Shown here: piece by piece, positions 29,169 to 31,130 of the stretch
How the letters are laid out: each line of letters begins with the position of its first letter
How positions within the stretch are numbered: position 1 is the first letter of the stretch
Assembly: GCF_002914585.1 (NCBI RefSeq)
Contig: NZ_PDDM01000002.1
Coordinates: forward strand, 1-64,000
DNA length: 64,000 bases
Direction of reading: 5' to 3'
DNA from: Pseudanabaena sp. BC1403
Lineage (GTDB): Bacteria > Cyanobacteriota > Cyanobacteriia > Pseudanabaenales > Pseudanabaenaceae
Position numbers and translations under genes: made by a program
Notes under the pieces: model-generated
What the model was told of the DNA's origin: nothing
Databases searched by the model: none
Seen by the model: the letters and a program-made list of their open reading frames with translations, nothing else

Positions 29169-31130
29169 ATGGCCAAATTTGATTTTCTATCGGATACTCA
29201 AAAACCTTGGCACTACATGGATGTAGAGCAAGTATTGACGGCTTTAGAGTCTTCGGTGGAAGGTTTGTCCTATGTGAATGCTCGACAAAGGTTGCGGCAT
29301 TTGGGAGCCAATAAATTGCCGCGATCGCGTCCAATTGGCAAAGTCCTTTTACAGCCTTTAATTAATCCTTTAACTTATCTTTTATTGGGATCAGCAGTCT
29401 ATTTGCAATGGAATGGAGCTGAAGGATGGGTGCTAATTTCTGTGGGTGTACTGCATAGTGCGATCGGTATTTGTATTTCGGTATGGTCAATTAAAACGAA
29501 GGAGAAAGTTAGTCGAGATCGCCCTCAACGTCGCCAAAATGAACCTTCTAGTTCAGTAGTAGTATTTCGCGATCGCGAAGAAATGGAAGTACCATCGCGT
29601 GACTTGGTGTTAGGTGATTTGTTGGTGTTGCGAGAAGGCGATCGTCCTAATGTCGATCTACGAGTACTAGAGACATCAGAGGATTTACAGGTAAATCAAA
29701 CCAACTTAGGCGGAGAAGCAATTTGTTTTAAGAGAGCTGATCTTACCTTTGAGGAGAAAACGCCGCCTCTTGAATGCAGCAACATGATCTATGCGGGAAC
29801 TGAAATTTCCGCAGGAAGCGCGAAGGGTATCGTGATTGCCACAAGTCGTTATACTCAAGAACAGTCTGCGCTCATCAAAGACAAGCCATTTTCAGTTATC
29901 CATTCCGAATTGCGTCAACTACGTCAAGTTTGGATCGGACTGTTGCTATTAGTGACGACTACCGCGATCGGCTTTGCTTGGCAACGTGGAATTACAATCA
30001 ATGCCATGACTGCTGCCGCCCTGATCGTTAGCACCTATCCCCAAAATTTATTGCGTATTGCTACTCAGGTACAATTATTTGGGATGCGCGATCTTGCTAA
30101 ACAGCGAATATGGACGAGATTTCCTTCTGTATTAGATGCGATCGCGAGAGTAACAACGATTGTACCGATTGTCGAGTCGGATGTGGTACTGAGCTTTGAT
30201 AATTTGAGTCGTGCTGGTATTGAATGGCAAGGATTAATAAGGGCTTCAGAAGAGGACGCAGTGGCATTTAGTGAGGTGATTGGTATTGAGACCCATAGTT
30301 ATTTTGATGCTCCTCAAGAGAAAATTCGTCAATGGAAAGACGACCAGCAAAAAACTCGCCAAAAATCTTTAAATGCAGTTGCCGTAATTGGGAATGATAT
30401 CGAAGATATTCCCCTACTGAGAGCAGCCGACGTGGGAATCTGCGATCGCACCTGCCGTAAAGAATTGCAAGATAGTTCAGGGCTGATTTTGCCGAAAGAT
30501 GACTTCCATTATTTGCCGATCGCTATTCTCGAAGGAAGAGCCACATTTGATCGGTTGCAACGTACAGCCCTGCTCACTGCCACTAGTTCCTTCACTTTAG
30601 CAGTGCTAACCCTTATGGATACTGCCGCAGGATTCTCAATGCCACCATTGCAGATAATCTGGGTCGGGGCGATCGCCACACCAATAGTTGCTTTTCCCTT
30701 AATCCTTGAGCCAACTCATGGGAGCCTTTTAACTCAACCAGCGTATCGTTTTCAAACCATGTTGCGCTCTAGCAATTACCTTCGCATTTTGCTATCTGTC
30801 ACTGCCACAATTACGGCTATTTCCGTAGTTTTCTGGCTAAAGTATCAAGGTCAAGCCTCGATGTTTTCTCAGGCGAGATCGATGGCATTTGTTACTCTTG
30901 GGTTTAGTCAGGTTTTTCATGCCTGTGCGATAGCTCGCCATAGTATATTAAGTAATCTGCCTCTGATGCTGAGCATATTTTTTATCGCTATTTGTCAACT
31001 TGCCTTTGTGCAAGTCCCTTGGTTTGGCGATTTAATGTCAACAGTTCCTTTAAACGGGATTGAATGGGCGATCGCAATTCTCAGCGCCACAGCAGTATTT
31101 TGGGTGCAAGAACTAATCAAAACTGGATAG
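29169..31130 (+). CDS. P-type ATPase-like membrane protein lacking the catalytic Asp (pseudoenzyme)
   Basis: The 653-residue frame follows the P2 (Ca2+/cation) ATPase layout: an N-terminal cation-ATPase domain (LTALESSVEGLSYVNARQRL), paired membrane helices, an actuator domain, more helices, a small P-domain and a C-terminal block of helices. Key motifs are gone. TGES reads GGEA (residues 181-184). The PEGLP helix reads STYPQNLLR. The DKTGT site reads IVPIVESD (331-338), with Ile at the Asp position. The nucleotide-binding domain is almost absent. The hinge GDGVNDAPAL reads VIGNDIEDIPLL (407-417). The frame is open and uses normal codons, so it is probably a maintained pseudoenzyme. Confidence 0.85.
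   Translation: MAKFDFLSDTQKPWHYMDVEQVLTALESSVEGLSYVNARQRLRHLGANKLPRSRPIGKVLLQPLINPLTYLLLGSAVYLQWNGAEGWVLISVGVLHSAIGICISVWSIKTKEKVSRDRPQRRQNEPSSSVVVFRDREEMEVPSRDLVLGDLLVLREGDRPNVDLRVLETSEDLQVNQTNLGGEAICFKRADLTFEEKTPPLECSNMIYAGTEISAGSAKGIVIATSRYTQEQSALIKDKPFSVIHSELRQLRQVWIGLLLLVTTTAIGFAWQRGITINAMTAAALIVSTYPQNLLRIATQVQLFGMRDLAKQRIWTRFPSVLDAIARVTTIVPIVESDVVLSFDNLSRAGIEWQGLIRASEEDAVAFSEVIGIETHSYFDAPQEKIRQWKDDQQKTRQKSLNAVAVIGNDIEDIPLLRAADVGICDRTCRKELQDSSGLILPKDDFHYLPIAILEGRATFDRLQRTALLTATSSFTLAVLTLMDTAAGFSMPPLQIIWVGAIATPIVAFPLILEPTHGSLLTQPAYRFQTMLRSSNYLRILLSVTATITAISVVFWLKYQGQASMFSQARSMAFVTLGFSQVFHACAIARHSILSNLPLMLSIFFIAICQLAFVQVPWFGDLMSTVPLNGIEWAIAILSATAVFWVQELIKTG

Follow-up and report, generated by a model that had tools for sequence, protein, structure and literature searches.

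P-type ATPases are defined by an aspartate that becomes phosphorylated, and no well-accepted bacterial family without this residue is known to us. The nearest precedent known to us is human TMEM94, the status of which is disputed. TMEM94 (ERMA) is reported to have a P-type-like fold without TGES, and neither ATPase activity nor a phosphorylation cycle nor Mg2+ binding could be detected (PMC12134183), whereas a later paper maintains that it is the ER Mg2+ ATPase (PMC13322241). The P6 ATPases (CtpE of mycobacteria) depart from the standard type II ion sites in that the M6 Asp is replaced (PMC10654040). They keep PEGL in M4 and work as Ca2+ uptake pumps. Keywords run against a 2023 review on P-type ATPase enigmas brought up no pseudo-pumps of the kind described below (PMC10654040). 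A literature search of incomplete coverage returned no paper describing such a family, which is likely, although not proven, to be new to the literature.

In this study, a gene of Pseudanabaena sp. BC1403 was analysed that lies in the window, the whole stretch of 64,000 nucleotides under investigation. Its product shares Cation_ATPase_N, the actuator domain, Cation_ATPase_C, the second half of the phosphorylation (P) domain and the M4 proline with the type IIA Ca2+ ATPases (SERCA, SPCA/PMR1, LMCA1), but has no nucleotide-binding (N) domain, no catalytic Asp and no ion ligands. A large N-like domain and a candidate Asp (D417) are present in TMEM94 but not in the pseudo-pump; TMEM94 is eukaryotic and, as far as shown, akin to the pseudo-pump only at the superfamily level. 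Non-standard ion sites are common to the P6 ATPases and the pseudo-pump, whereas PEGL and Ca2+ uptake set P6 apart from it. If the interpretation given below is true, there would be a branch of the bacterial P-type ATPases that does not pump. Such a branch would offer a clean case for what the membrane and actuator parts of a pump can do when uncoupled from ATP, and something simple with which to compare the disputed TMEM94.

Gene and domain architecture

The gene is an uninterrupted open reading frame of 653 aa with an ATG start, located on contig NZ_PDDM01000002.1. Its features are as follows.

29169..31130, + strand: pseudo-P-type ATPase gene, 653 aa (open reading frame; orthologs)
29208..29399, + strand: Cation_ATPase_N, residues 14-77 (Pfam, E 6e-12)
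29550..30104, + strand: E1-E2_ATPase, comprising actuator domain and M3-M4, residues 128-312 (Pfam, E 2.3e-21)
29709..29720, + strand: GGEA replacing TGES/TGEA, residues 181-184 (alignments)
30036..30056, + strand: M4 motif YPQNLLR replacing PEGLPA, residues 290-296 (alignments)
30105..30554, + strand: reduced phosphorylation domain lacking the excised N domain and the catalytic Asp and Lys, residues 313-462 (alignment; profile matches)
30159..30182, + strand: IVPIVESD at the former place of DKTGT, residues 331-338 (alignments)
30390..30407, + strand: GNDIED replacing the GDGVND hinge, residues 408-413 (alignment)
30639..31121, + strand: Cation_ATPase_C, C-terminal membrane helices, with M5-M6 ion ligands changed from Asn/Glu to Ser/Leu and from Asn/Asp to Gly/Thr, residues 491-651 (Pfam, E 3e-22; alignment)

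In Pfam searches with the 653-aa protein, the matches to Cation_ATPase_N, E1-E2_ATPase and Cation_ATPase_C were all above cut-off, and no match was obtained to the Cation_ATPase N-domain (PF13246) or to the HAD hydrolase. In contrast, L089, an active paralog in the same genome, matched all these domains, including the N-domain and HAD. The best profile match in NCBIfam was TIGR01522, the PMR1-type Ca2+ pump, with 112 bits, far short of its cut-off of 798, and matches in the Protein Data Bank were to SPCA, SERCA and LMCA1. With the domain matches of a cation-transporting ATPase, the protein will probably be labelled a pump by automatic annotation. An intact set of helices, putatively in a ten-helix P2 arrangement, is suggested by the near-full match to Cation_ATPase_C (4-173 of 175) together with the hydropathy peaks, with M5 starting near residue 463, upstream of the Cation_ATPase_C match. 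AlphaFold gave a pLDDT of 37.8 for the full protein from a shallow alignment of 13 close sequences, and 35.9 for the remnant of the P domain, likewise from a shallow alignment, both too low for a usable model.

A preliminary description of this DNA had reported 653 open codons, IVPIVESD for DKTGT, GGEA for TGES, a nearly absent nucleotide domain, a degenerate hinge and an intact set of helices. The open frame and the four defects are confirmed at the positions listed, the lack of a nucleotide domain being evident from the short M4-M5 loop as well as from the missing PF13246 match, and the helices are predicted to be complete by the profile match and hydropathy just given.

Loss of catalytic and ion-binding residues

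The motifs were assessed in an alignment of nine relatives and eleven active pumps with canonical motifs, six of the latter from the host genome. From the M4 proline to the position of the M5 Asn there are 183 aa in the window copy and 175-187 in the nine relatives, compared with 350-469 in the 11 active pumps. In the alignment, the deletion takes out the entire N domain together with a short stretch of the P domain, so that the first P-domain strand is fused to the second half. Within this second half, AGIxWxGLIRA aligns with the AGIRxxMITGD region of the pumps, and SYFDAPQEKIR with their ARVSPEHKLR region. A profile built from the remnant recognises, among solved structures, the P domains of CopA, LMCA1 and SPCA, which puts descent from P-type ATPases beyond doubt.

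The Asp and Lys of DKTGT (D351, K352) fall into a gap in the alignment with the 11 canonical pumps. TGD is changed to IRA or IRT in the members of the pseudo-pump family, the P-domain Lys position is occupied by K, R, Q, W or T, and GDGxND varies at its key residues. The actuator TGE has become GGE in most members, and some have D, G or N instead of the dephosphorylation Glu. Active Ca2+-type pumps of the same lineage (L089, L095, L098) have TGEA and not TGES; taken by itself, the last Ala of GGEA is therefore no sign of decay.

The ion ligands are lost as well, a defect that was missing from the preliminary list. The ion-site Glu of M4 is replaced by Gln (Q292), or in one member by Lys; in M5 the Asn is A, S or L and the Glu mostly Leu; in M6 the Asn is Gly, and the Asp is Thr in most members. 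Judged by these alignments, the protein lacks the residues required for phosphoenzyme formation, ATP hydrolysis or the usual coordination of ions. It is a P-type ATPase superfamily member by descent, with a predicted type II fold, that lacks the hallmarks of the enzyme.

Other residues are newly fixed across the family, namely R296 and mostly Q292 in M4, S337 of ESD, and AGIxW. The Arg, five residues past the proline, is present in 9 of 9 members, and the ESD of IVPIVESD is nearly invariant, reading DSN in L050.

Distribution and origin

A direct search yielded 12 ortholog loci with 79-90% identity; 31 of the 38 genomes of the order, all from one family, carry an ortholog. With a broader profile run over 388 genomes of the class, Asp-less orthologs were found in 34, all of them in the host's family (34 of 38 genomes, 7 of 8 genera), and none in the approximately 350 other genomes of the class. 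In the genus Pseudanabaena, 25 of 26 genomes have the gene. Most of the named matches belong to Pseudanabaena; Phormidium tenue and an uncultured cyanobacterium account for one each. The only genomes of the family without it are two incomplete ones (77% and 82%) and those of genus g146, where it is absent from a genome that is 99% complete. The copies of genus g144 are shorter and much diverged (580-588 aa, approximately 25% identity). This divergence and the absence from g146 indicate that the gene is not indispensable in the family.

Whether all orthologs lack the Asp had been named beforehand as the test of a conserved family. None of the 30 aligned copies with an intact, full-length frame has DKTGT, and neither have the two intact short copies of g144. 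A profile of the P-domain remnant, run over 386 genomes of the phylum, gave only weak matches outside the genus, and the seven that were inspected were ordinary pumps with DKTGT. A search of plasmids gave only matches of approximately 25-27% identity, most of which carry the annotation of an ordinary cation-transporting P-type ATPase.

In a maximum likelihood tree, the nine sampled members form one clade with support 100/100, whose long stem measures 2.76 substitutions per site; the tree does not place this stem among the pumps, because several of these have long branches. The tree fits a single origin and fast change, followed by renewed constraint. We infer a single origin of the family in a type II (Ca2+-pump-like) P-type ATPase, predating the divergence of most of the known genera of Pseudanabaenaceae. 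The N domain would have been cut out, the first P-domain strand thereby joined to the second half of that domain, and the catalytic and ion-binding residues replaced. By these sequence comparisons, the protein is an ancient P-type ATPase pseudoenzyme of single origin.

Selection and integrity of the reading frame

Selection was assessed within the genus by dN/dS (NG86), the check that had been proposed for the orthologs. The pseudo-pump has a median dN/dS of 0.078 (range 0.045-0.115), indicating purifying selection, and five neighbouring genes have values of 0.033-0.125; in most pairs, synonymous sites approach saturation, which makes the closest pairs, with 0.05-0.09 against the window copy, the better guide. 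By part, the value is 0.076 for the P-domain remnant and 0.074 for the last six helices, the C-terminal membrane part; in the membrane domain it is 0.057-0.074 for M3-M4 and M5-M10. When the same two genomes are compared, L089, the active Ca2+-type pump, is 90% identical and the pseudo-pump 81%. The pseudo-pump thus evolves faster than a working pump, yet is far from free to change.

All 25 copies of the genus have open frames. An apparent in-frame TAG in G395 was discarded, being the terminal stop taken into the alignment. Neither an ortholog with a normal DKTGT site nor a frameshift in a close relative, the two signs by which recent decay was to be recognised, was found in the genus, and recent decay is refuted by the lack of any relative with a normal site. 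The original proposal of a pseudoenzyme rather than a decaying gene is thus upheld by the Asp-less orthologs together with the low dN/dS.

Outside the genus, L054 (G417:C149, g148) and L103 (G387:C28, g144) are split between frames near the N terminus; both come from draft assemblies, and the split may be error or decay. A canonical PEGLP/DKTGT pump of g146, L053 (G391:C3:2634676-2637309), is also divided into two frames of 547 and 358 aa, a possible frameshift.

Possible functions

Because selection is strong despite the loss of the pump parts, the protein must have a job that needs no pumping. A structural or regulatory job, as originally put forward, is what we infer. The pseudo-pump probably represents a lineage-specific, minimal pseudoenzyme family without an N domain, in which the membrane and actuator parts of a pump serve as a non-catalytic membrane protein with an M4 Arg near the former ion site. 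More specifically, this pseudoenzyme of single type II origin may well now act as a membrane scaffold or regulator, the explanation favoured here because conservation is about equal in the cytosolic remnants and the membrane helices and because new motifs have been fixed. A fixed, uncoupled assembly of actuator domain, P-domain remnant and ten helices would sit in the membrane, and its conserved cytosolic surface, with the ESD and AGIxWxGLIRA motifs, would bind another membrane protein or a lipid.

The main rival is transport without ATP, in which the membrane domain would offer a passive path for ions or lipids, for example as a lipid scramblase or a channel. The constraint on the membrane domain noted above would suit such a path, as would the retained helix-breaking proline of M4 with its new invariant Arg, and TMEM94 has a lipid in the corresponding groove (PMC12134183). 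On the other hand, every canonical ion-coordinating side chain is gone, and a bare channel would have no need of cytosolic remnants that are about equally conserved. A passive path is a possible but distinctly less probable function than that of a scaffold or regulator.

The second rival, an inactive partner that regulates one of the active type II pumps of the genome by pairing with it, is unlikely. Inactive paralogs often regulate active ones, and the genome has several active type II pumps, two of them with PEGLPA. However, type II pumps are mostly monomeric, the gene is unlinked to any pump gene, and active pumps occur in g146, which lacks this protein.

It is very improbable that the protein is still an energy-using pump, with another protein or the ESD motif standing in for its missing N domain or Asp. 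Close to the old site, most copies do have a conserved acidic pair in ESD, but the motif is DSN in L050, the P-domain Lys, GDGxND and the Asp of TGD are lost or variable, and the ion ligands are lost. A split enzyme with the N domain in trans was rejected, since the genome has no orphan N domain available for complementation; all five of its PF13246 matches lie inside full-length pumps. A recently dead, decaying pseudogene, to which the lost catalytic motifs and the frame breaks in the two distant draft copies (L054 in g148, G387 in g144) might point, can be dismissed in view of the low dN/dS, the 25 open frames of the genus and the identical motif losses common to several genera.

Gene neighbourhood

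Across the neighbourhoods of the family, no conserved partner gene was found. In 14 Pseudanabaena genomes, the gene directly upstream of the pseudo-pump (c7; loci L009, L010, L011, L013, L015, L018, L082, L084, L085) encodes a membrane protein of 446 aa, with a range of 442-463 aa, that has one apparent helix, a long, probably helical domain and no Pfam match; the measured gaps are approximately 16-130 bp. It is absent from the 11 other gene-bearing genomes of the genus, the host included, and unlinked in other genera, and was rejected as an operon partner for these reasons. The gene cysH was likewise rejected, as it adjoins the pseudo-pump gene only in g144 and g148, where the pseudo-pump gene follows it (L052 and L075 in G389; L054 and L076 in G417). 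Upstream of the pseudo-pump gene, g144 and L080 of genus g145 have a pentapeptide-repeat-like gene.
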